The position numbers were made by a program, and so were the translations under genes. Positions 699 to 13,609 of a stretch of 64,000 nt of DNA are shown piece by piece (position 1 is the first letter of the stretch; each line of letters opens with the position of its first letter). The notes beneath the pieces were generated by a model. The model did no database searches. It was not told the DNA's origin and saw only the letters and a list, made by a program, of their open reading frames with translations. The stretch comes from Pleurocapsa minor HA4230-MV1 (lineage in GTDB: Bacteria > Cyanobacteriota > Cyanobacteriia > Cyanobacteriales > Xenococcaceae): assembly GCA_019359095.1 (NCBI GenBank), contig JAHHHZ010000017.1, positions 310,001 to 374,000 on the forward strand, written 5' to 3'.

Positions 699-1754
699 GT
701 GGAGCTTTTTGAAACTGTTACACAAATGGGTCACGAACAAGTTCTTTTTTGCCACAACCCAGAACAAAATTTAAAGGCAATAATTGCGATTCACGACGCT
801 AGCTTGGGTTCGGCAATGGGAGCAACTCGTTTGTGGCCCTATGCTAATGAAGCTGATGCACTGCGAGACGTTCTCCGCCTTAGTCGTGGTATGACATATA
901 AGGCAGCCTGTGCCAATATTCCCGTTGGTGGTGCTAAAGCCGTAATTATTGCCGATCCGAAAGCTAAAACCAGTGAGCTTTTGAGAGCATATGGACGCTT
1001 TGTTGACAGCTTAAACGGACGTTTTATCACTGGACAAGATGTAAATCTTGTTCCCCAGGACGTGCGGGAAATTAGTCAGGAAACCAAGCATATTGTTGGA
1101 GTAACCGAGAAATCTGGAGGGCCTGCTTTTATAACAGCACAGGGAGTCTTATTTGGCATCAAAGCTGCGGTAGAGTTTAGCTCAAATAAAAAACTTAACG
1201 AGCTGAAAATTGCCGTTCAAGGATTAGGAAATGTTGGTAGTAATCTATGCAAGCTTCTCTCTGAAAATGGGGTAACTCTTTTTGTCACTGACATTAATCC
1301 TGAAAAAACGGCAGAAATTGAGCGTCTTTACGGAGCTACAGTTGTAGACCCCGATCAGATTTATAGTCTCGATGTTGATATTTTTTCTCCCTGTGCTTTG
1401 GGAGCAACTTTAAACGATTCAACAATTCCTTTGCTCAAAGCCTCAATCGTTGCTGGTGCTGCTAATAATCAGCTTGAAAACGAACAGCTACATAGCAAAC
1501 TCCTTAAATCCAGAGGAATTTTTTATTGTCCCGACTACGTGATTAATGCTGGAGGCTTGATCGACGTTTACAACGAAATGATTGGCTACGAAGAAGAGAA
1601 AGTATTTAAGCACCTAAACGGCATTTATGACACCTTGCTAGAAATATTTAGCATTGCCAAGCAACAAGACATAACTAATTTTGAGGCTGCTCAAAAATTA
1701 GCAGAGCAGCGCATCAAAAAAGCGCGATCGCAAAAGGCGACAAAAGAACACTAA
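699..1754 (+). CDS. scyB: ScyB, leucine-dehydrogenase-like enzyme of scytonemin biosynthesis
   Basis: Member of the Glu/Leu/Phe/Val dehydrogenase family, 351 aa from a GTG start. The two active-site lysines align with LeuDH numbering: K68 in MTYKAA and K80 in VGGAKAV. The Rossmann motif GLGNVG is at about residues 175-180. In scytonemin synthesis ScyB oxidatively deaminates tryptophan to indole-3-pyruvate with NAD, and ScyA then couples this to p-hydroxyphenylpyruvate (family knowledge). Assignment to ScyB rather than an amino-acid catabolic dehydrogenase rests on the immediate neighbour scyC, 15 bp downstream, and the ebo genes. The partner scyA is not present in the window. Confidence 0.9.
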   Translation: MELFETVTQMGHEQVLFCHNPEQNLKAIIAIHDASLGSAMGATRLWPYANEADALRDVLRLSRGMTYKAACANIPVGGAKAVIIADPKAKTSELLRAYGRFVDSLNGRFITGQDVNLVPQDVREISQETKHIVGVTEKSGGPAFITAQGVLFGIKAAVEFSSNKKLNELKIAVQGLGNVGSNLCKLLSENGVTLFVTDINPEKTAEIERLYGATVVDPDQIYSLDVDIFSPCALGATLNDSTIPLLKASIVAGAANNQLENEQLHSKLLKSRGIFYCPDYVINAGGLIDVYNEMIGYEEEKVFKHLNGIYDTLLEIFSIAKQQDITNFEAAQKLAEQRIKKARSQKATKEH

Positions 1755-1769
1755 CGAAAGGATAGATTA

Positions 1770-2741
1770 ATGGAAGAAAATACTTTTGCTACATCTGCGT
1801 ATATTGCCACTTCTGCCACAACGGCTTTTGACTATCTTTGTAGCTTAGAAAATCTTGACGACTGGACTCTTTATAGTCGCATGATCGAGAAAATCGATGA
1901 AGATACGTGGTTAGGCACTGCCTCTGGTTATCAAAACAATCTTTACTACCACGTAAAGAGAGTAGAAACCCCATTCTTGCGCGGAATCGAGTGGCACTGC
2001 GGGGTTGAATACCAAAAATACTTTCAGGTTTATCCTGTTTTTCTTTTTACCCCAGACTACATTGACCCAGGAACAGACGAACAGGGAGTTTATTTTCACT
2101 GGCTCAGTTTTGTCGACCCCAAACGGCGATCGCCAATGATTATGCAGGGGATTGAAACTGTCCACACTTCTGAATGTCGCTCTTTAAAAGCGATTTTGGA
2201 ACGCAACGCTGGCAAAACCGAAGCTACCCAAGGGCGCTATCGAATCGATACTGACACTATCTATATTGATGCTCCAATTGAGCTGGGTTTTGAATACCTA
2301 CAAGATCTGCGCAACATGGAAGACTGGGCGCATCTTTTACGCGCTAACGGCGAGATTGCGCCAAATTCGGGCAGTTTTCTGGACGAGTACAACCAAAAGG
2401 TAGAAGTTAGCCTGCGGATTAACGACCTCAATAACTACTACCTAATCGAGCAAAACTTTTATTACCCCGACGACGATTTTACTCAGCGTTGTCCAACTAT
2501 TATCATTCCTTGCTCCTACGCTTTCGGCGACCCAGATGCTAGGGGGTTTATCCAGCATCGGATTACCTTCTGGCCCGTTCACCAATCTCTGCGTCGTGGC
2601 AAGCTACAAATTCAGGACTATGGGGCTGAAAGCATGAACGTTAAGCGATTATTGGAAGCTAAAGCAGGCAACACCAAGACGTTTGATCGAGGAATGAGCT
2701 ACAAACCTGCTAATTTGGAAGCGATCGCAGCCTCCGTCTAA
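1770..2741 (+). CDS. scyC: ScyC, scytonemin biosynthesis cyclase
   Basis: 323 aa, ATG preceded by AAGGA. ScyC carries out the cyclisation/decarboxylation that forms the tricyclic monomer of scytonemin (known for the Nostoc ScyC). The protein shows an internal two-fold repeat. Residues 12-40 (ATSATTAFDYLCSLENLDDW) resemble residues of the second half (YIDAPIELGFEYLQDLRNMEDW), which fits two tandem START/SRPBCC-like halves. It is close behind scyB and certainly co-transcribed with it. Length agrees with known ScyC. Confidence 0.92.
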   Translation: MEENTFATSAYIATSATTAFDYLCSLENLDDWTLYSRMIEKIDEDTWLGTASGYQNNLYYHVKRVETPFLRGIEWHCGVEYQKYFQVYPVFLFTPDYIDPGTDEQGVYFHWLSFVDPKRRSPMIMQGIETVHTSECRSLKAILERNAGKTEATQGRYRIDTDTIYIDAPIELGFEYLQDLRNMEDWAHLLRANGEIAPNSGSFLDEYNQKVEVSLRINDLNNYYLIEQNFYYPDDDFTQRCPTIIIPCSYAFGDPDARGFIQHRITFWPVHQSLRRGKLQIQDYGAESMNVKRLLEAKAGNTKTFDRGMSYKPANLEAIAASV

Positions 2742-2980: not shown

Positions 2981-3068
2981 AAAATGAAACTTTGAAGGAA
3001 CAAACTCCCCCAATACTCCCCCAATAAATAAAATGGACGAAACTTTGAACGAACAGACTCCCCCAGTA
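2981..3068 (+). repeat. Tandem duplication of the start region of the ScyD/E-like gene
   Basis: A 30-bp block at 2986-3015 recurs at 3039-3068 with three mismatches (GAAACTTTGAASGAACARAC followed by TCCCCCARTA). Both copies follow AAAATG, but the upstream copy lacks four bases, so its ATG runs into TGA after three codons. The genuine start at 3033 encodes the downstream copy (DETLNEQTPP). The upstream copy encodes NETLKEQTPP in its own frame, which ends at a TAA at about 3025. Confidence 0.75.
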
Positions 3069-6000
3069 GATGCAGCCCCTGGTAACGAGGACGTAACATC
3101 TAGCCTCCCAGCCCAATATTCTGAAGGCAACGCGGGCTTTTTTAACCGCCAGAACGAGGCTGTCCCAACTGCCGTTACGGTCGGCCCTGACGGCGCGCTC
3201 TATGCCTCTGAGTTGAGCGCGTTGCCCTACCCTGAAGGCTACGCTAACGTGGTGCGGATCGACAATCCAGAGGGTGATGCTAGTTATGATGGAGAGACTC
3301 CAGGCGGTGTTAGCCAGACCTATGCCAGTGGCTTTGAGCAAATTAATGGTCTAACGTTTGACGAGGAGGGGGCGCTTTATGTCCTTGAATACGTAAACGG
3401 TAGCACCGTATACGACCCGTCGCTCCCAGTTGAAGAGTTGCCAGCGAGTCGTTTGATTAGGGTCGATCCAGATGGCACGCGTCAGCAGATATCTGGTGAG
3501 GAGCTGCGCTTCGGCAATTATGTGTTCGCCCATGAAGGCAAGATTTATACCGCAATTAACAACGGCGACATCGACAAGGGGCAGGTGCTTGCATACGAAC
3601 AAAACCCTGAGACTGGTGAATGGTCGCACGAAGTCGTTGCCGAAAATCTGAATAATCCGCGTGGCATGGACATCGGCCCCGACGGTAACCTTTACGTTCT
3701 TGAGGTAGGCAAAGGAACGCCAGCAGACGACCCAAACGTTGACGACGCGCTAAGCGTTGAATTTATTCCTGGTTTGGTTAGCCAGCGCGCTGGGTACACC
3801 GCTGCGATTAGCCGAATTGACCTTGAAAATGGTGGTCAAGAGCGAATTTACGAGGGTTTACCTTCTACTGTTGAATACAACCCAAACACTGGCGAGGATC
3901 GCATTGTATCCATTGGTTCCAACGGCATGGCGATCGGCGACGATGGTACGGTGTGGATTTCCTCTGGTGGCGGTCTGTCGGATGAAAGCGCTGATGCGTT
4001 AGGCGAGTTCGGCGAAGGTTTGCGCGGCGTACTGAAGCTTGATGGTTTGTTCGGCGAAGATCCTTCGCAGGCGACCTGGACTCCAGCATTTGATTCGGTG
4101 CAATACGCAGGTGAGAATGGGCCTGATGGCGCAACCACACTGTTCAACACCCAGAGCAATTTGAACGATATTGAGGTTGGCCCCGACGGCAATCTTTATA
4201 CCGTCGATGCAGCACGCAATGTAATGTACGGTCTTAGCCCAGACGGTCAAGAAGTAGAAAGTGTCACCGTGCTGCAAAAGACTCCGCCAGTACTGACTCC
4301 AGCACAATATGCCTTAGTTAAAGAGGCGGGCGGTGACCCAACTGCTGACTACAGCGTCGAGATCTCCGAACGTACATTTAAAGGCGAGAACGATTTACCC
4401 GATACGCCAGGCAGGCAGCAAGCGCTAGCGAACGAGGCTGTGGCTTCAACCGAGGGCGGCACAAATGGTGAGATACCACCTGAAGGAAGCAATGGTGAAG
4501 CGCCTAGTTCTCCTCCCCAGCAGGACATTCCCTTAGAAGAATCTGCTAATGGCAATGGCGAACCCCCTCTACGGGGTGAGGATGCTGCGGTCGGTACCAC
4601 TTTGGGCGAGGGGCAAGAGGCTGGCAACACTGAAACCCTCGTAGCTACAACGGCGGACGACTTACCAACAGAGGTACCAGGTCTTGACCAAACAACGCCT
4701 CCTCCAGAGGGTTTAGACGCAAACCAATTCGATCCACTCAATCCTGGTTTGGTGCCTGGTGTCGAACAAAGTGTACTGACTCCTGGCCCAATCGATCCGA
4801 CTAAGCCTGCTATAACTGAGGGTAATCCGTTTGCTGAGTACTTCGATCCGTTTTTCGGTGTGTATTCACCAGCGGAGGGAGAAGAACCCGTGCTGCCAGA
4901 CGGAGAAGATGGCTACAAAGTTGACGACCTGTTCGTGTTCGGCGATCGCCTGACTGAAAATGGTGGTGAGTTTGGCAAGAACGCTGTAGCCCAAAGTACG
5001 GGCGCTAACCCTCCTTACGATGAGGCTCCCTACTCACCTGACGGCAGCTTCACAGACGGCGAGAACTGGACTACATACCTGGCAAGTATTCTCGGCGTTG
5101 AGAACGAGGGAGAGCAAGACACTAATTTCAGCTATCTTGACGCTACTGCTCGTGAATTAGAGAACCCTACCGATCCGTTTGGCGAGGCAACAGAGTTAAA
5201 TAGCTTCGCTGGTCAAATCGATACCTTCAAGCAAACCTATGGCACGTTCACCGAAGACGACTTAGTGGCCGTCAATTTTGGCGGCAACGATCTAACCTTG
5301 CCTCCAGAGGAAGGCGTTACACCAGAGCAGGCAGCCCAGCAGTCAATCCAGGCTACTGTTGACGGCATTGCCAGCCTGCAAGAATTAGGTGCCGAGAACT
5401 TTTTGGTCGGACTTGTCCCGCCAGTTGAGCTAGCGCCAATCTTCAATGAGCAGGATTTTTTAGACCTTCTTGGTGTCCAGCCTGGTTTCTTCGAGCCAAT
5501 AGTAGAAAGCTACAACCAGGCGTTGACGGCTGCACTAGATACTTACGAGGCAGAATCGGGCGCGAACATCGAAATTCTAGATACCAATGCTCTGTTTGAC
5601 GATATTGCTGCCGAGCCTGGATCATACGGCTTCACCAACGTGGAAGAGCCGGTATTGAGCAGCAAGACACCAGTGACTGGAGAACCCATAGCCTACAATC
5701 CTGACATTGTGGGACAAGATCCAGCGGTACAACACTCGACACTGTTCCTCGACCCATACTTCCATCCAACTGCGCTCGGTCACTCGATTGTCGCCGAGAC
5801 GGCACGGGACGAACTGCTTAATTTGGGCGAAGATATTAGTGGATCGACATCTGAAGCAACAGGAATGACCGTTGGGCTTTACGATGCGGACACAGACACC
5901 TTAATCGCGCCTCTGAAAAATGGTACACAAATTCAGGCGAGTGAAGTTGCTGGTAAGAATTTGACAGTTGCTGCCTCAGTTCCAGAAGATAGTGCTTATT

Positions 6001-6221
6001 TTGAACAGGTGGAGAGCGTGTTCTTAAATTTAAATGATGGTCAGGTTACTCGAACAGAAAATGCCGAACCCTACGCTATATTTGGTGGCAATAATGGGGA
6101 CTATTTTAACGGAGGAGTTGATTTGCAGGGAGAACATACCATTGCTTTCGATATGTATTCCGAAGATGAACTCGGTGGCGAAATGCTTGGCAGCATGAGT
6201 GTAGACTTCTCAATTGTCTAA
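3033..6221 (+). CDS. ScyD/ScyE-family beta-propeller fused to a GDSL/SGNH-like domain
   Basis: 1062 aa. Residues about 40-445 are a ScyD/ScyE-type NHL-like propeller with repeated VGPDGALY, IGPDGNLYV and VGPDGNLYTV blades. Residues about 465-620 are a Pro/Gly/Glu-rich linker. Residues about 628-930 resemble the cyanobacterial GDSL (SGNH) esterase domain: block I FGDRL at 636-640, the block III-like GGND at 750-753, and DPYFHPT with D907 and H911. The block I nucleophile Ser is Arg (R639), and the usual Asp-x-x-His spacing is one residue longer, so hydrolase activity is doubtful. About 120 C-terminal residues form a further domain of unknown role. ScyD and ScyE are secreted or periplasmic assembly factors whose exact role is unsettled. 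No N-terminal signal peptide is visible. The gene is richer in G+C than its neighbours: 35 of 60 bases at 4021-4080, against 21 of 60 at 6601-6660 in eboA. Confidence 0.82.
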   Translation: MDETLNEQTPPVDAAPGNEDVTSSLPAQYSEGNAGFFNRQNEAVPTAVTVGPDGALYASELSALPYPEGYANVVRIDNPEGDASYDGETPGGVSQTYASGFEQINGLTFDEEGALYVLEYVNGSTVYDPSLPVEELPASRLIRVDPDGTRQQISGEELRFGNYVFAHEGKIYTAINNGDIDKGQVLAYEQNPETGEWSHEVVAENLNNPRGMDIGPDGNLYVLEVGKGTPADDPNVDDALSVEFIPGLVSQRAGYTAAISRIDLENGGQERIYEGLPSTVEYNPNTGEDRIVSIGSNGMAIGDDGTVWISSGGGLSDESADALGEFGEGLRGVLKLDGLFGEDPSQATWTPAFDSVQYAGENGPDGATTLFNTQSNLNDIEVGPDGNLYTVDAARNVMYGLSPDGQEVESVTVLQKTPPVLTPAQYALVKEAGGDPTADYSVEISERTFKGENDLPDTPGRQQALANEAVASTEGGTNGEIPPEGSNGEAPSSPPQQDIPLEESANGNGEPPLRGEDAAVGTTLGEGQEAGNTETLVATTADDLPTEVPGLDQTTPPPEGLDANQFDPLNPGLVPGVEQSVLTPGPIDPTKPAITEGNPFAEYFDPFFGVYSPAEGEEPVLPDGEDGYKVDDLFVFGDRLTENGGEFGKNAVAQSTGANPPYDEAPYSPDGSFTDGENWTTYLASILGVENEGEQDTNFSYLDATARELENPTDPFGEATELNSFAGQIDTFKQTYGTFTEDDLVAVNFGGNDLTLPPEEGVTPEQAAQQSIQATVDGIASLQELGAENFLVGLVPPVELAPIFNEQDFLDLLGVQPGFFEPIVESYNQALTAALDTYEAESGANIEILDTNALFDDIAAEPGSYGFTNVEEPVLSSKTPVTGEPIAYNPDIVGQDPAVQHSTLFLDPYFHPTALGHSIVAETARDELLNLGEDISGSTSEATGMTVGLYDADTDTLIAPLKNGTQIQASEVAGKNLTVAASVPEDSAYFEQVESVFLNLNDGQVTRTENAEPYAIFGGNNGDYFNGGVDLQGEHTIAFDMYSEDELGGEMLGSMSVDFSIV

Positions 6222-6397: not shown

Positions 6398-7149
6398 ATG
6401 GTCAATAATCTTACCTCCAAAAGTAATCAAGTATTTGTTCTTTTGTCTGACTGGATTTCACGGCAATTAGACTCACAGCGTTTAAGTTGGTTACAACAAA
6501 AGCAGCAGCAAATAGCTTCTGATTCATCTGGACGTGCTTTTTTTTTGCTTATAGTGCTGTGTCTCGTTTTATAGGCAAGGAAAATCTCCAGTTAGAAGAA
6601 ACAGATCTTCAAGAATTAGCCAACCAGAATATTGGTTGGTTTCCACAATATTGGACTATAGATCGAGCGGTTCGTATTTGGCTGCTGTTATCTCTTAATT
6701 TAGATAACCAACAATATTTAGCTGTAATAAAACAGCTTTTGAATACTGGTGATGTAAGAGAGTTAACAGCACTCTATCAAGCCTTACCTTTTTTACCCAA
6801 TCCCGAACGGTATTATCATATTGCGACTGAAGGAGTCCGTAGCAATATGACAGACGTATTCAATGCTATTGCTCTATACAACTTTTATCCCGCTGCATAT
6901 TTTGACGAACTTGCTTGGAATCAAATGATACTCAAAGCTTTGTTTGTGGGTAGTCCTTTAGCTAAAATTCAAGGGCTAGAGCAACGCGCTAATGTCACTT
7001 TAGCCACAATGTTAATCGATTATGCCCGCGAACGTGTGTCAGCTAACAGATCGGTGTCTCCAGAACTCTGGCAAATTGTAAGTCGATTTGCCGATACTGC
7101 ATTCTTGGCAGACTGGGAAAAATTGCCGATTGAGTCAGAGTTAATTTAG
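6398..7149 (+). CDS. eboA: EboA, interrupted by a frameshift at a T9 run
   Basis: EboA is the first protein of the ebo operon, which supports delivery of scytonemin precursors to the periplasm; its molecular role is unknown. Reading from ATG 6398 gives MVNNLTSKSNQVFVLLSDWI and on to SSGRAFF, then the frame is lost at nine T (6538-6546) and stops at 6572-6574. The downstream frame continues directly with AYSAVSRFIGKENLQL through to TAG 7147-7149. One extra T would join the halves into an EboA of about 250 aa. The downstream half alone could start only at GTG 6559, which has no ribosome-binding site and would lack about 50 residues. Either the gene is broken, the run is a sequencing error, or RNA polymerase slippage restores the frame. 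Confidence 0.8.
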
Positions 7150-7355: not shown

Positions 7356-8264
7356 ATGATGTTTATCGACCCTCACATTCACATGACATCGCGTACTACC
7401 GATGACTATCAAGCAATGGCGAAAGCGGGAATAGTAGCGATAATTGAGCCAGCTTTTTGGTTGGGACAACCTCGTACCAGCGCAGATAGTTATAAAGATT
7501 ATTTAAGTTCCCTAGTCGGTTGGGAAAGATTTCGCGCCAGCCAGTTTGGCATTAAACATTACTGCACTATTGGTTTGAACTCGAAAGAAGCTAATAACGA
7601 GGTATTAGCAGAAGCAGTGATGGAGTTACTACCTCTTTATGCTTGCAAAGAGGGCGTAGTAGCTATAGGAGAAATTGGTTATGACGACATGACTCCAGCC
7701 GAAGATAAATATTTCCGCCTCCAATTAGAATTAGCGAAAGAATTAGATTTACCCGTAATGATTCATACCCCCCATCGGGATAAAAAATCGGGTACGTCTC
7801 GTAGCATGGATGTCTGTATAGAACATGGTTTAAAACCAGAGCAAGTAATTGTCGATCACAACAACGAAGAAACCGTTCGAGAAGTATTAGATCGAGGTTT
7901 TTGGGCAGCATTCACTATTTATCCTCAAACTAAAATGGGTAATGAAAGGATGGTGGAAGTAGTGCGAAATTATGGTTGCGATCGCATTATTGTCGATAGT
8001 AGTGCTGATTGGGGTGTTAGCGATCCTTTGGCAGTGCCTAAAACTGCTCGATTAATGCAAAAAAGAGGTATTCCCGAAGCTCAAATTAAAGCTGTTTGCT
8101 ATCAAAATGCTTTAGCTGCATACGGTCAAAGCGGTCAAATCAAAGAAAGTGATTGGTTAGAGCGAGAATTAATCGATCGCCGCCAACTTTATAGTGGCAA
8201 TTCTGTATTAAGAGGACAAGAACCTCTAGTTGAATCAATTCTAGAATCAGTCGTTATTGTTTAA
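7356..8264 (+). CDS. eboB: EboB, TatD-family metal-dependent hydrolase
   Basis: 302 aa TIM-barrel amidohydrolase of the TatD family. Metal ligands are visible as H7/H9 in DPHIHM, His in MIHTPH, DHNNEE and the Asp of VDSSADWG. In the ebo operon its substrate is not established. The gene begins with two consecutive ATGs. It is separated from eboA by a MITE and from eboC by another repeat, so polycistronic transcription through the cluster would have to read strong hairpins. Confidence 0.88.
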   Translation: MMFIDPHIHMTSRTTDDYQAMAKAGIVAIIEPAFWLGQPRTSADSYKDYLSSLVGWERFRASQFGIKHYCTIGLNSKEANNEVLAEAVMELLPLYACKEGVVAIGEIGYDDMTPAEDKYFRLQLELAKELDLPVMIHTPHRDKKSGTSRSMDVCIEHGLKPEQVIVDHNNEETVREVLDRGFWAAFTIYPQTKMGNERMVEVVRNYGCDRIIVDSSADWGVSDPLAVPKTARLMQKRGIPEAQIKAVCYQNALAAYGQSGQIKESDWLERELIDRRQLYSGNSVLRGQEPLVESILESVVIV

Positions 8265-8324
8265 CCAAGAACTCCAGCAAAATCAATCGCAGCTATTTTA
8301 TTTGCAGTTAAATAGAACCTATCA

Positions 8325-8472
8325 TATGAAGTCCGTTTAAACAATTTCAATTAAAACTCGCGCAAAGACGCTAAGACGCTAAGACGTTGATCCCGCTTAG
8401 TTTGGGGCCCTAAAGGACTAGCTTCGCGTCGCAAAGATTTTATTAAAAGTAATTAAGCGGACTTGATATTAC
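8325..8472. mobile_element. MITE family A, copy 1 (eboB-eboC spacer)
   Basis: About 148 bp bounded by imperfect terminal inverted repeats ATGAAGTCCGTTTA (left) and TAAGCGGACTTGAT (right). The interior holds AATTAAAACTCGCG, AAGACGCTAAGACGCTAAGACG, a CCTAAAGGACTAGCTTCGCG module and CAAAGATTTTATTA. The same element occurs at 48788-49016 and 52542-52688. Confidence 0.75.
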
Positions 8473-8493
8473 CCATTACCCATTACCCATTAC
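8468..8493. repeat. Heptamer tandem repeat (ATTACCC)
   Basis: Three perfect copies of ATTACCC followed by ATTAC, immediately after the MITE. It belongs to the class of short tandemly repeated repetitive sequences found in many cyanobacteria. Confidence 0.8.
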
Positions 8494-8532
8494 TTCGATA
8501 AATCAATGTATCTACTCAATTAAAACCAACTT

Positions 8533-9447
8533 ATGATCTCCGTAACAAGAATTAAACCTCAGTCTGTCCTTGGTTATTTGCAGTTAATGCGTCCTGCCAA
8601 TATTATTACCGCTTGGGCAGATATTCTCCTGGGTTATGCTGCTGCTAGCTCGGTAACGGGAGGAATTAACAACTTAGATATTATTGCTTTAACTACGTTG
8701 ATTTTAGCAACCACAGGACTGTATGGAGGTGGTGTCGTTTTTAACGATATCTGTGATGCTGCGTTAGATGCTGTCGAACGCCCAGAACGACCTATCCCTA
8801 GTGGTAGGGTATCTTTGACGGGGGCAATTGCATTAGGAACGGCATTATTGCTCGTTGGTATTATTGCTGCTGCGATGGTATCTAACTTGAGTGCCATTTT
8901 AGCGAGTATAGTGGCAGTAACGGCGTTACTCTATGACAAGTATGGCAAACATCATACTTTTTTCGGGCCTTTAAATATGGGTGCTTGTCGTAGTGCCAAC
9001 TTGCTATTGGGTGTCAGTGCTATTCCCGAAGCTGTGAGCGATCGCTGGTATTTAGCTGTCATTCCTGTTGTCTACATCGCTGCTATTACTGCTATTTCAC
9101 GGGGAGAAGTTCGAGGAGGTAATAAAACTACGGGAATTATAGCGATCGCTTTAATTGGCATAGTTATTAGTAGTGTTCTCGGTTTGGGACTGTTGCCTGA
9201 ATATAGCTTATTAATTACTCTACCTTTTTTAGCTTTATTTACCGCTTTAGTTTTACCACCTTTTATTAAAGCTGCCCTAACTCCCAGTCCCGAATTGATT
9301 CAAACGGCAGTCAAAGCAGGAGTTTTATCTTTAATTGTTTTAGATGCAACTATCGCAGCAGGTTTCGCCAATTGGATTTACGCTTTGCTTTTATTGGCAC
9401 TGCTGCCAGTATCTCGTTTTTTAGCTCGTTTATTTGCCGTCACTTAA
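8533..9447 (+). CDS. eboC: EboC, UbiA-like prenyltransferase family protein
   Basis: 304 aa integral membrane protein with about eight to nine hydrophobic segments. The first UbiA Asp-rich motif is NDICDAALDAVERPERPIPS (near residue 72). The second region is YDKYGKHHTFFGPLNMGACR. EboC is thought to act with EboB/D/E/F in making or moving a lipid-linked or isoprenoid-like factor required for export of scytonemin precursors; the exact reaction is unknown. The stop codon is one base before the eboD ATG. Confidence 0.9.
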   Translation: MISVTRIKPQSVLGYLQLMRPANIITAWADILLGYAAASSVTGGINNLDIIALTTLILATTGLYGGGVVFNDICDAALDAVERPERPIPSGRVSLTGAIALGTALLLVGIIAAAMVSNLSAILASIVAVTALLYDKYGKHHTFFGPLNMGACRSANLLLGVSAIPEAVSDRWYLAVIPVVYIAAITAISRGEVRGGNKTTGIIAIALIGIVISSVLGLGLLPEYSLLITLPFLALFTALVLPPFIKAALTPSPELIQTAVKAGVLSLIVLDATIAAGFANWIYALLLLALLPVSRFLARLFAVT

Positions 9448-9448
9448 T

Positions 9449-10669
9449 ATGTTTATTTTAGAAAATAAAGTTTCTTCCTTAGAGTCACTACATCAAAGCA
9501 TTGCAGTTAAATTCAGCTACGACGTTCATTTTACTAGAGATTTATGGTCAACCAGGAATCTGTTACTATCTCAGGTTATAGCTAGAGACAGTAATGTCGC
9601 CAAATCTGTCATTATTATCGTAGATTCGGGATTGTTAAACCACCATCCAGGACTTTTGAGCAAAATAGCCAACTATGCTAATTATTACGACGATAAAATT
9701 AAATTAGCTGCCGAGCCAATCGTCGTTCCAGGAGGAGAAGCAGCTAAAAACGATCCTACTCTGGTAGACAAAATTCATCGCATTATCGAACAAGTAGGAT
9801 TGTGCCGTCACTCTTACGTTTTAGCCATTGGTGGTGGTGCAGTAATCGATCTGGCGGGATATGCTGCTGCTACTGCCCATCGAGGTATTCGCCTGATTCG
9901 TCTTCCTACCACTGTTTTGGCTCAAAACGATTCGGGAGTCGGAGTAAAAAACGGCATCAACGCCTTTGGCAAAAAGAATTTTTTAGGCACTTTTGCCCCA
10001 CCCTTTGCCGTACTTAATGACTTTGACTTTCTAACTACCTTGGGCGATCGCGATTGGCGAGGGGGTATTGCCGAAGCAGTTAAAGTAGCCCTAATTAAAG
10101 ATCGAGACTTTTTTGAATTTATTAGCGATCGCGCTGATGATTTAGCTAAAAGAGATTCTCAAGCTATGGAACAGTTAATCTATCGCTGTTGTCAACTGCA
10201 TCTTGACCATATTGCTACATATGGCGATCCTTTTGAAATGGGTTCTTCTCGCCCCTTAGATTTTGGACACTGGGCTGCCCATAAACTAGAACACTTAACC
10301 CATTATCGTCTCCGCCACGGAGAAGCCGTTGCAATTGGTATGGCTTTAGACTGTACCTATTCTTATTTAACTGGACTACTTCCCGAGGCAGACTGGCAGC
10401 AAATCATTAAAACTTTGAAACAACTGGGATTTGAACTATATGTCCCAGAATTAGCTGTGGATCTGAAGAACAAAACCTTAAAAAGCTCTATTTTTAGCGG
10501 ATTGAGCGAATTTCGCGAACATTTGGGTGGAGATTTGGCAATTATGTTGCTTCAGAAAATAGGAAAAGGAACAGAAGTCGACCGAGTTGACATTGACCTG
10601 TACAAAAAAGCTATCTCGATGTTGCAAAAGATTGAAGTAGATGCTGTCGCTCAATCTATTACTGTCTAG
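9449..10669 (+). CDS. eboD: EboD, 3-dehydroquinate-synthase-like (sugar phosphate cyclase family) enzyme
   Basis: 406 aa from ATG 9449, which I prefer to an upstream TTG because it follows the eboC stop by one base. NAD-binding GGGAVIDLAGYAAA and PTTVLAQNDSGVGVKNG are visible, as are metal-site residues in GGIAEAVKVALI, DFGHWAAHKLE and HGEAVAIGM. Fold and cofactor residues match dehydroquinate synthase, but its place in the ebo operon argues for a different cyclitol-type product. This gene is not expected to supply the shikimate pathway. Confidence 0.9.
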   Translation: MFILENKVSSLESLHQSIAVKFSYDVHFTRDLWSTRNLLLSQVIARDSNVAKSVIIIVDSGLLNHHPGLLSKIANYANYYDDKIKLAAEPIVVPGGEAAKNDPTLVDKIHRIIEQVGLCRHSYVLAIGGGAVIDLAGYAAATAHRGIRLIRLPTTVLAQNDSGVGVKNGINAFGKKNFLGTFAPPFAVLNDFDFLTTLGDRDWRGGIAEAVKVALIKDRDFFEFISDRADDLAKRDSQAMEQLIYRCCQLHLDHIATYGDPFEMGSSRPLDFGHWAAHKLEHLTHYRLRHGEAVAIGMALDCTYSYLTGLLPEADWQQIIKTLKQLGFELYVPELAVDLKNKTLKSSIFSGLSEFREHLGGDLAIMLLQKIGKGTEVDRVDIDLYKKAISMLQKIEVDAVAQSITV

Positions 10670-10920
10670 TCACTTGGCAATACTTCTCGGTTAACAATTG
10701 CTGCGGTAAATCTCAGCTTAAGTAATGAGTAATTTAACTTTTACCTACTACCTATTTGCGAAGCTTATCCTTTAGGACTACCTACTACTTCAAACCCAAC
10801 CAATCAATAACAAAGCTTAAACGAGAAGTATTGAGTCGCTGGGAAAATTGCTAACTCATGGCAATCGCTTTCCCTAAGATTTTAAAAGCTGTTGGCAATG
10901 TAAGATAACTGGGCAATACC
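10670..10920. repeat. eboD-eboE spacer with degenerate ACCTACT repeats and a CCTTTAGGAC palindrome half
   Basis: At 10742-10790 degenerate heptamers (ACCTACT, ACCTATT, ACCTACT) are interrupted by GCGAAGCTTATCCTTTAGGA, the module found in the other repeats of this window. No ORF. A weak ribosome-binding context precedes eboE. Confidence 0.55.
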
Positions 10921-12207
10921 ATGAAATTAACTACTAAGACAGATTTACACCTCACCTACTGCACTAATATTCATCCAGGAGAAACTTGGGCAGAAGTAGA
11001 AAACAACCTCAGACAATATATTCTGCCCCTAAAAACTCGCCTATCTCCAGATCGACCTTTTGGTATTGGCTTGCGTTTGGCAGATATCGCAGCTAGAGAA
11101 TTACTAGAAGACAATAATCTATCTCAATTCCAAACTTGGTTACAAGCAGAAGACTTATATGTTTTTACCCTTAATGGTTTTCCCTACGGTGGGTTTCATC
11201 ATCAAGTAGTAAAAGACCAAGTGTATGCCCCCGACTGGTGTAGCAGCGAACGTTTGGACTATACCTTGAGGTTAATGGAAATCCTCAAGGCTTTGTTACC
11301 AGATAGTCTCGATGGAGGAATTTCTACCTTACCAATATCTTACAAACCCTGGCAGCAAAATACTGACGAGAGACAAACAACTCTACATCAAAGTAGTCTT
11401 AATTTGGCTAGGGCGATCGCCAAAATGGTTCAGATTTACCAAAACACGGGGAAACTGCTGCATATCGATCTCGAACCCGAACCCGATGGTACGCTAGAAA
11501 ATACTGCTGAGGTAATTAATTTCTTTCAAGATTGGTTATTGCCGATAGCAGGTAGCTGGCTACAGCAAAAATTATCGGTCACTCAGACAACAGCAGAAAC
11601 CTGGATTAAAGAACACATCAGAGTTTGCTACGATACTTGCCATTTTGCCGTAGAGTATGAAGAACCAGAGGATATTATTCGACGTTTAGATAATGCAGGC
11701 ATAAAAATTGGCAAAATTCAGCTTAGTTCGGCGATCAAGATCGATATACCAGCCCAAACAGATCGGCGCCAGCTTATTTTAGAACAACTGTTGCCTTTTG
11801 CCGAATCTACCTATCTACATCAGGTAATTGCTAGTTATGAAGAGTCAAATGAAACAGCTTCTTCAAACACCTTCAAACATTATCGCGATTTATCCCTTGC
11901 CCTGCCTGATTTTCTGACAACGGAAGCACGAGAATGGCGTACTCACTTTCACGTACCCATATTCATTCGCAACTATACCACAGGGTCAAAACGTCAGCTA
12001 TTTGAATCGACTCAAGAACATATCAAAAAACTATTACAGCTTTTGCCAGACGTTGCGACTCATCATTTAGAAATTGAAACCTATACTTGGGAAGTCCTAC
12101 CTCCAGAAATGAAATTAGACATCTTAACTTCCATCGAGCGTGAGTATCAATGGGTTTTGTCAGCGATCGCCGAGCGCGTAGATACTAAACAAAGAGCTTC
12201 TCTCTAG
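10921..12207 (+). CDS. eboE: EboE, metabolite traffic protein (xylose-isomerase-like TIM barrel)
   Basis: 428 aa, matching the EboE family by context and by signature segments: the start TYCTNIHPGETW, LHIDLEPEPDG, CYDTCHFAVEYE, and a late ETYTWEVLP. The acidic and His residues in these segments are metal-ligand-like, as in sugar isomerase or endonuclease IV barrels. EboE is required for periplasmic delivery of the scytonemin monomer; its catalytic role is not known. It lies 25 bp upstream of eboF and is surely co-transcribed with it. Confidence 0.88.
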   Translation: MKLTTKTDLHLTYCTNIHPGETWAEVENNLRQYILPLKTRLSPDRPFGIGLRLADIAARELLEDNNLSQFQTWLQAEDLYVFTLNGFPYGGFHHQVVKDQVYAPDWCSSERLDYTLRLMEILKALLPDSLDGGISTLPISYKPWQQNTDERQTTLHQSSLNLARAIAKMVQIYQNTGKLLHIDLEPEPDGTLENTAEVINFFQDWLLPIAGSWLQQKLSVTQTTAETWIKEHIRVCYDTCHFAVEYEEPEDIIRRLDNAGIKIGKIQLSSAIKIDIPAQTDRRQLILEQLLPFAESTYLHQVIASYEESNETASSNTFKHYRDLSLALPDFLTTEAREWRTHFHVPIFIRNYTTGSKRQLFESTQEHIKKLLQLLPDVATHHLEIETYTWEVLPPEMKLDILTSIEREYQWVLSAIAERVDTKQRASL

Positions 12208-12232
12208 CTACTTTTAATCAATGATCTGACTT

Positions 12233-13609
12233 ATGAAGAAAACTGTAGTGTTTAATGTAGTTGGTTTAACTACTCAATTAATCGGAGAACATACTCCTTT
12301 CCTTGAGCGCTGGCAGCAGCGGGGCAAAACAACTTCAATTAACCCAGTCTTACCTGCCGTAACCTGTACTGCCCAGGCAACCTACTACACGGGAGTAAAT
12401 CCCGACCAACACGGTATTGTAGCTAATGGTTGGTATTTCCGAGAAGAGTGCGAAGTCAAACTATGGCGACAGTCAAACCACCTGATTCAAGCACCAAAAA
12501 TTTGGGATAAAGCGCGATCGCTCGACCCCGAGTTTACCTGTGCCAATCTTTTTGGCTGGTACAATATGTACTCGACTGTAGATTACGCCGTTACACCCCG
12601 TCCCTTATATCTGGCAGACGGCAGAAAAATCCCCGATATCTACACCGAACCGATGGAATTGCGCGACTGGTTAAATTCTGAATTGGGTGAATTTCCTCTA
12701 TTTAATTTTTGGGGGCCAAATACTTCAGTAAAATCAAGTCAGTGGATCGCCGATGCTGCCAAGCAAGTCGAACTAAAATATAGTCCTACTCTAACTTTGG
12801 TTTATTTACCGCACCTAGACTATTGCTTACAAAAAATTGGCACTAAGCCTCAAGCGATCGCCAAGGATTTACGAGAAATAGATCGCATATGCCAGGAGTT
12901 AATCGAGTTTTATGAGGCAAAAGGGGCAAAAGTCATCGTTCTTTCCGAATACGGTATTACGGAAGTTTCTACCCCCATTCATCTTAACCGCCTATTCAGA
13001 CAGCAGGGTTTAATAACTGTCAGAGAAGAACTGGGTGGGGAAATCCTGATTCCTGGGGCGAGTAAGGCTTTTGCCGTTGCCGATCATCAAATTGCCCACG
13101 TCTATATTAATGACCCCAGTTGCTTATCTCAGGTACGAAATATTTTAGAACATACTTCAGGAATCGATTTAATTTTGGATGAAACGGGCAAGCAAAAATA
13201 TCACCTCAATCATTCTCGTTCGGGAGAATTAGTCGCGATCGCTCGTCCCGATGCTTGGTTTACTTACTATTATTGGTTAGATGACCATCGCGCCCCAGAT
13301 TTTGCCCGTACTGTCGATATTCATCGTAAACCAGGTTACGACCCTGTAGAATTGTTTGTCAATCCTCAGCTAAAATTACCCAAAGCTAAGGTGGCATTAA
13401 GCTTATTGAAAAAAAAATTAGGTTTTCGTTATCTGATAGATGTAATTCCTCTAGATGCCAACCTAGTTAAAGGTTCTCACGGTCATCTTACTGCTTCAGT
13501 AGAGCAATCGCCATTATTTATTACTCAACAGCAAAATCTATTAACCAAGGAAACAATTGAAGCACAACAAGTGTTTCAGTTAATACTCAATCATCTTTTA
13601 GAAAGCTAG
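12233..13609 (+). CDS. eboF: EboF, alkaline phosphatase/nucleotide pyrophosphatase superfamily protein
   Basis: 458 aa. The nucleophile region PAVTCTAQATYYTGVNPDQH matches type I phosphodiesterase/NPP enzymes (catalytic Thr in VTCTAQ). A later HxH-type motif is KGSHGHL. Between them the usual Ser-Asp-His-Gly metal motif reads SEYG, so metal binding may differ; I cannot tell whether this is typical of EboF. It is the last gene of the ebo run. Confidence 0.88.
   Translation: MKKTVVFNVVGLTTQLIGEHTPFLERWQQRGKTTSINPVLPAVTCTAQATYYTGVNPDQHGIVANGWYFREECEVKLWRQSNHLIQAPKIWDKARSLDPEFTCANLFGWYNMYSTVDYAVTPRPLYLADGRKIPDIYTEPMELRDWLNSELGEFPLFNFWGPNTSVKSSQWIADAAKQVELKYSPTLTLVYLPHLDYCLQKIGTKPQAIAKDLREIDRICQELIEFYEAKGAKVIVLSEYGITEVSTPIHLNRLFRQQGLITVREELGGEILIPGASKAFAVADHQIAHVYINDPSCLSQVRNILEHTSGIDLILDETGKQKYHLNHSRSGELVAIARPDAWFTYYYWLDDHRAPDFARTVDIHRKPGYDPVELFVNPQLKLPKAKVALSLLKKKLGFRYLIDVIPLDANLVKGSHGHLTASVEQSPLFITQQQNLLTKETIEAQQVFQLILNHLLES

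Follow-up and report, generated by a model that had tools for sequence, protein, structure and literature searches.

Enzymes of the SGNH (GDSL) type require the serine of block I for catalysis. Among the GDSL/SGNH lipases of PF00657, the nearest solved by sequence to the domain described here are PlaA (8a24), 8h09, 8hwo and the thermolabile hemolysin 6jl1. For scytonemin, the closest described proteins are ScyE and ScyD of scytonemin clusters. In Nostoc, ScyE is an essential protein of the periplasm, and a 2018 study, as excerpted, proposes that it acts as the dimerase of the scytonemin monomer (PMC6282210); an excerpted 2016 Nostoc study concluded that ScyE has no direct part in the final steps (PMC4870267). 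In this study we describe a gene in which a ScyE-type propeller is circularly permuted and fused to a conserved SGNH domain. It lies in a window (the whole stretch of DNA that was analysed) of 64,000 nucleotides from Pleurocapsa minor HA4230-MV1. We consider it fairly probable that the encoded protein is the permuted ScyE of this lineage, that it carries a conserved, non-hydrolytic SGNH relic as a binding or positioning module, and that the genome-wide HIP1 motif did not cause the loss of the serine. Our literature search returned no paper joining scytonemin with GDSL and none on an SGNH pseudoenzyme and the catalytic serine, and the word "fusion" is absent from the main text of the paper found on scytonemin, Pleurocapsa and scyE.

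The fusion gene (1062 aa; 3033..6221, on the + strand like all genes and domains of the window given below) lies between scyC and eboA. Upstream of it are scyB, a tryptophan dehydrogenase gene (699..1754; NF035922 619 bits, cut-off 600), and scyC (1770..2741; NF035924 616 bits, cut-off 400), and a ScyA-like enzyme and trp-like genes, assigned by eye, are found further upstream on the same contig. Downstream follow eboA (6559..7149; 177 bits for the NF035938 domain with a cut-off of 50, and 261 bits for NF035937, under its cut-off of 320) and a region from eboB to eboF (7356..13609), within which eboC and eboE score above the NCBIfam cut-offs and eboB (TatD-like), eboD (3-dehydroquinate-synthase-like) and eboF are putative assignments from gene order. 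From its N-terminus the protein consists of a leader, the permuted ScyE propeller, an acidic linker, the SGNH/GDSL domain and a C-terminal beta domain.

NF033206 (ScyE_fam) gives 181.9 bits on the fusion, with a cut-off of 80, and is above cut-off in all four genomes that carry the gene. Compared with canonical ScyD/ScyE, the propeller has undergone circular permutation: its first half (residues 29-193; 3117..3611) is homologous to their C-terminal half and its second half (residues 194-425; 3612..4307) to their N-terminal half. When seven comparators were used, five of them divided in the middle and two at a VPT motif, the swapped arrangement beat the collinear one each time, by 22 to 109 points, and each half aligned best crosswise in all seven, with a narrow margin (97 vs 74) for one comparator's second half. 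Among six canonical proteins the collinear order won in 15 of 15 comparisons, and the order of the NF033206 profile is swapped in the fusion proteins of all four genomes.

How widespread is this arrangement? Matches at E 1e-10 occurred in 27 of 100 relatives, the gene itself only in four of them: the window's own genome (G000), two of the same genus (G005 and G012) and one of another genus of the same family (G016), where the gene is split across the ends of two contigs, one of which carries scyB and scyC. Searching with the SGNH alignment gave orthologues in 4 of 27 genomes of the family. In a 386-genome sample of the phylum no orthologue besides the window's own was detected; the four further matches that reached E 1e-15 or better there come from open frames of 327-413 aa. 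A scan of a contig collection yielded one locus, from Pleurocapsa sp. CCALA 161, which is very probably G005, and a plasmid collection yielded no match to the fusion. ScyC exceeded its cut-off in 8 of the 100 relatives, and 4 of these 8 carry the fusion. Separate ScyE-family genes stand at its place in three others (two genes in G037, two in G070, one in G087), followed by a ScyF-like gene assigned by eye. In a further genome, G001, ScyC is divergent (62% identical), and the 17 kb read there contain no ORF resembling the fusion. In G012 an eboA-like gene (L040 11184-11990, 51% identical) lies on the strand opposite to eboB.

At E 1e-5, NF033206 picks up no protein besides the fusion in G005, G012 and G016. 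This, together with the place of the gene and the role of ScyE in Nostoc, indicates that the fusion is probably the ScyE of this lineage, and it probably helps to finish scytonemin. The permuted propeller would then carry out, outside the cytoplasm, the oxidative step that joins scytonemin monomers into dimers, or assist in it. Several points speak against a ScyE role: the window's genome encodes two further ScyE-family proteins outside the cluster (on contigs C15 and C25, with no signal peptide visible by eye), NF033206 also matches in 3 of 14 control genomes, so that the family is wider than the scytonemin makers, and there is the conclusion of the 2016 Nostoc paper, as excerpted (PMC4870267). 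The two genes, on C25 (L043 7285-8508) and C15 (L044 7034-8209), are nearly identical.

The leader of the fusion protein (MDETLNEQTPP...; 3033..3116) starts with MDETLNE or MEETLNE in all four orthologues. Neither a hydrophobic signal peptide nor a PEP-CTERM is visible by eye, a point that also speaks against the ScyE reading. Directly 5' of the start codon, at 2984-3020, the leader-coding stretch is present a second time in interrupted form, and G005 has MNETLNEQTPPINEMDETLNEQTPP there. The leader MEETLNE occurs again, beginning with an internal Met, within a Gly/Asn-rich ORF (L057 13874-14953) upstream of the ScyA-like gene. Gly/Ser/Asn-rich proteins, mostly with NPF motifs and with no visible signal peptide, were seen beside the scytonemin clusters of 7 of the 8 genomes read (L057 13874-14953 and 15155-15847; L039 605-2719; L040 45-2633; L042 6411-7262; also L046, L047 and L048), and none in G001. 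It is conceivable, though less likely than not, that the fusion is a lineage-specific scytonemin dimerase whose permuted propeller and repurposed, non-hydrolytic SGNH pocket around Arg639 replaced scyD, scyE and scyF, and that it is exported by way of the leader shared with the Gly/Asn-rich cluster protein and not by Sec.

Behind the propeller, an acidic, Pro-rich linker of variable length (4308..4922), with NPFA(E/D)YFDPFFGVY close to its end, leads to the SGNH/GDSL domain (residues 633-922; 4929..5798). PF00657 matches the fusion with 55.1 bits (gathering cut-off 23.6; E 1.5e-14), and with the ScyE family score and the scyB, scyC and ebo neighbours this bears out the fusion of a ScyE-like protein to a GDSL domain in a scytonemin cluster for which the preliminary description had argued. 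Its reading of block I was accurate as well: F636-G637-D638-R639-L640 (4938..4952) is written TTC GGC GAT CGC CTG, with GGCGATCGCC at 4941-4950 and within it the HIP1 octamer GCGATCGC (4942..4949, without strand). Arg639 takes the position of the nucleophile serine, and block I departs from the canonical GDSLSDxGN at several other positions too. FTDGxNW and FGGNDL, which we take to be the Gly of block II and the GxND of block III, are present in all four orthologues. Block V reads DPYFH in all four (D907 to H911; 5751..5765), so both Asp and His are there at a spacing one residue wider than in DxxH. The extra residue, also pointed out earlier, is backed by structure-linked alignments: in the HMMER alignment to PlaA the Asp meets an Asp only across a one-residue insertion, and in the ungapped alignment to 8h09 the position of the Asp is a Pro. 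The C-terminal beta-rich domain (5865..6218) has an approximate boundary, its strands coming only from a low-confidence AlphaFold2 model of the SGNH and C-terminal parts (two-row alignment, pLDDT 39.6).

The SGNH domain is under strong purifying selection. Its dN/dS is 0.048-0.066 in five of six pairs of orthologues, at a dS of 1.24-1.92 that is near saturation; the closest pair, G000-G005, has 0.199, a value derived from few changes. All four orthologues share VDDLFVFGDRLTENGGEFGKN and FLDPYFHPTALGHS without any amino-acid difference, while the codons beneath them vary synonymously. With the catalytic residues gone, one could regard the domain as a decaying, functionless remnant, an idea that is hardly credible for a pocket signature invariant in 4/4 and a dN/dS of about 0.05-0.07 in all pairs but one at nearly saturated synonymous sites. 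The same purifying selection could be expected of a domain that is still an enzyme but works by an altered mechanism, with a different nucleophile or the His alone and with Arg639 binding the substrate. The oxyanion-type blocks FTDGxNW and FGGNDL, kept with D907 and H911 in all four, would fit such an enzyme, and the low-confidence model leaves room for another nucleophile or acid; there is, however, no serine at or beside the nucleophile position of block I, and Asp and His are spaced differently, and we regard this alternative as unlikely. The domain is best read as conserved and catalytically degenerate, and the earlier suggestion that it is not an esterase is probably correct. As a non-hydrolytic relic, with Ser changed to Arg, a different Asp-His spacing and its Gly and GGND blocks kept, it would most likely serve to bind or position a partner such as a matrix glycan or the monomer.

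Has the serine been lost to HIP1? The preliminary description suggested that mutation or selection for HIP1 replaced an AGC (Ser) codon by CGC in an ancestor that was still active, and that the dead form was then kept. Its statement that HIP1 is massively over-represented holds for the window's genome, with 6883 copies of GCGATCGC and 29 of a reversed control (7736 and 57 in G016). Its wider premise, that HIP1 shapes protein sequence, was also supported. In 460 kb and 297 ORFs of the window's genome (the window, L043 and L058-L076), GDR occurs 54 times vs 18.8 expected from residue frequencies (2.9x) and SDR 91 times vs 19.8 (4.6x), and in 400 kb and 284 ORFs of G016 (L187-L206) the counts are 58 vs 18.5 and 81 vs 18.7; the control tripeptides GDK, GER and ADR are at or under expectation. 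GDS falls short of its expected count in G016 (13 vs 24.4) but barely in the window's genome (24 vs 26.5). Such shifts in composition, and an octamer lying exactly at the Arg codon in three of four orthologues, would agree with a loss driven by HIP1.

GDR tripeptides are written GGCGATCGC in 48 of 54 cases in the window's genome (fusion included) and in 46 of 58 in G016, so that HIP1 beneath a GDR is the base rate and is to be expected whatever the history; the HIP1 coding of this GDR does not go beyond the 48/54 of its genome. The fusion gene is not dense in HIP1, with one site in its 3.19 kb vs about 3.9 expected from genome density. Arg stands at the nucleophile position in all four orthologues, coded CGC, CGC, CGC and CGT; the CGT belongs to the most distant, G016, which has GGCGATCGT and thus Arg without HIP1. 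Arg on codons free of HIP1 in most fusion orthologues would speak against the proposed origin; the Arg was indeed found in all four, but a codon free of HIP1 in only one, so that this sign is present only in part. Since the blocks are identical, dN/dS is low and G016 uses CGT, the Arg is kept for the sake of the protein, at least in G016.

Other SGNH proteins lend the HIP1 origin no support. After removal of repeats and short matches from 116 matches, 105 distinct SGNH domains remained, with Ser in 99, Arg in 4 (all of them fusion orthologues) and Leu in 2, in a survey that leans to Ser, since 23 Ser-bearing rows were the seed of its model and PF00657 matches at E 1e-12 or better supplied most of its places. 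Four of its 60 regions gave no row, two that were poorly chosen (L110, L111) and two with PF00657 matches that the model missed (L131, L137), and the model also missed the C19 protein, the other SGNH protein of the window's genome above the Pfam cut-off. The C19 protein keeps GDSL, its Ser written AGT, and DGLH; it belongs to a different subfamily. Nine of the 116 survey rows have GGCGATAGC, one step from HIP1, with the Ser retained, in a count by eye that does not consider how rich in HIP1 the genomes are. The FGDLL proteins of G004, G009 and G017 (L050 2160-3569, L049 1800-3212, L168) have Leu in block I, no HPT block and, in G004 and G009, RTX-like repeats seen by eye; they form a second Ser-less SGNH family, without HIP1, in the same cyanobacterial family. 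Grouping them with the SGNH domain of the fusion received an SH-aLRT of 70 in one tree and was absent from the other, with long branches in both, and was not rejected (p-AU 0.304). The second tree was built without the rows of nine loci, judged long or odd, and with a random draw of 45 from the canonical rows that then remained. The stem of the fusion's SGNH domain measures 1.77 to 1.83 changes per site in the two trees, a length at which neither the residue before Arg nor a single AGC-to-CGC step can be reconstructed.

We therefore consider a HIP1-driven loss very unlikely: Arg persists without HIP1 in G016, GDR carries HIP1 at base rate anyway, block V and further block I residues have changed along the long stem, no Ser-bearing orthologue was found among 27 family genomes (4 with the gene), and the second Ser-less family carries Leu with no HIP1 site. 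At Arg639 the octamer most plausibly reflects how Gly-Asp-Arg is ordinarily encoded in these HIP1-rich genomes, rather than the cause of the Ser loss. An ancestral HIP1 event is conceivable, given that HIP1 influences protein sequence in these genomes and that no Ser-bearing orthologue came to light, but it is unsupported.

In conclusion, this permuted ScyE fusion contains a real and conserved degenerate SGNH domain, whose HIP1 origin is unsupported. The case illustrates that a HIP1 site at an active site should be weighed against the frequency with which HIP1 encodes that peptide in any case. For the mechanism of ScyE, a permuted and fused protein that is the sole copy found in three genomes would offer an independent natural variant for finding the residues that dimerisation needs. 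With ScyE and ScyD (NF033206) the fusion shares a family score above cut-off, the place after scyC and the propeller repeats; it differs in its permuted halves and fused SGNH domain, and while Nostoc ScyE has a Sec signal peptide and a PEP-CTERM, according to the excerpted paper (PMC4870267), neither can be seen by eye in the fusion. It resembles the PF00657 lipases in its domain match, its Gly and GGND blocks and the His of block V, and departs from them in having Arg for the nucleophile Ser, DPYFH for DxxH and a changed remainder of block I. With the FGDLL proteins, finally, it has in common an SGNH domain without the block I Ser in the same cyanobacterial family, whereas theirs carries Leu, lacks the HPT block and is accompanied by RTX-like repeats (G004, G009), and that of the fusion carries Arg.
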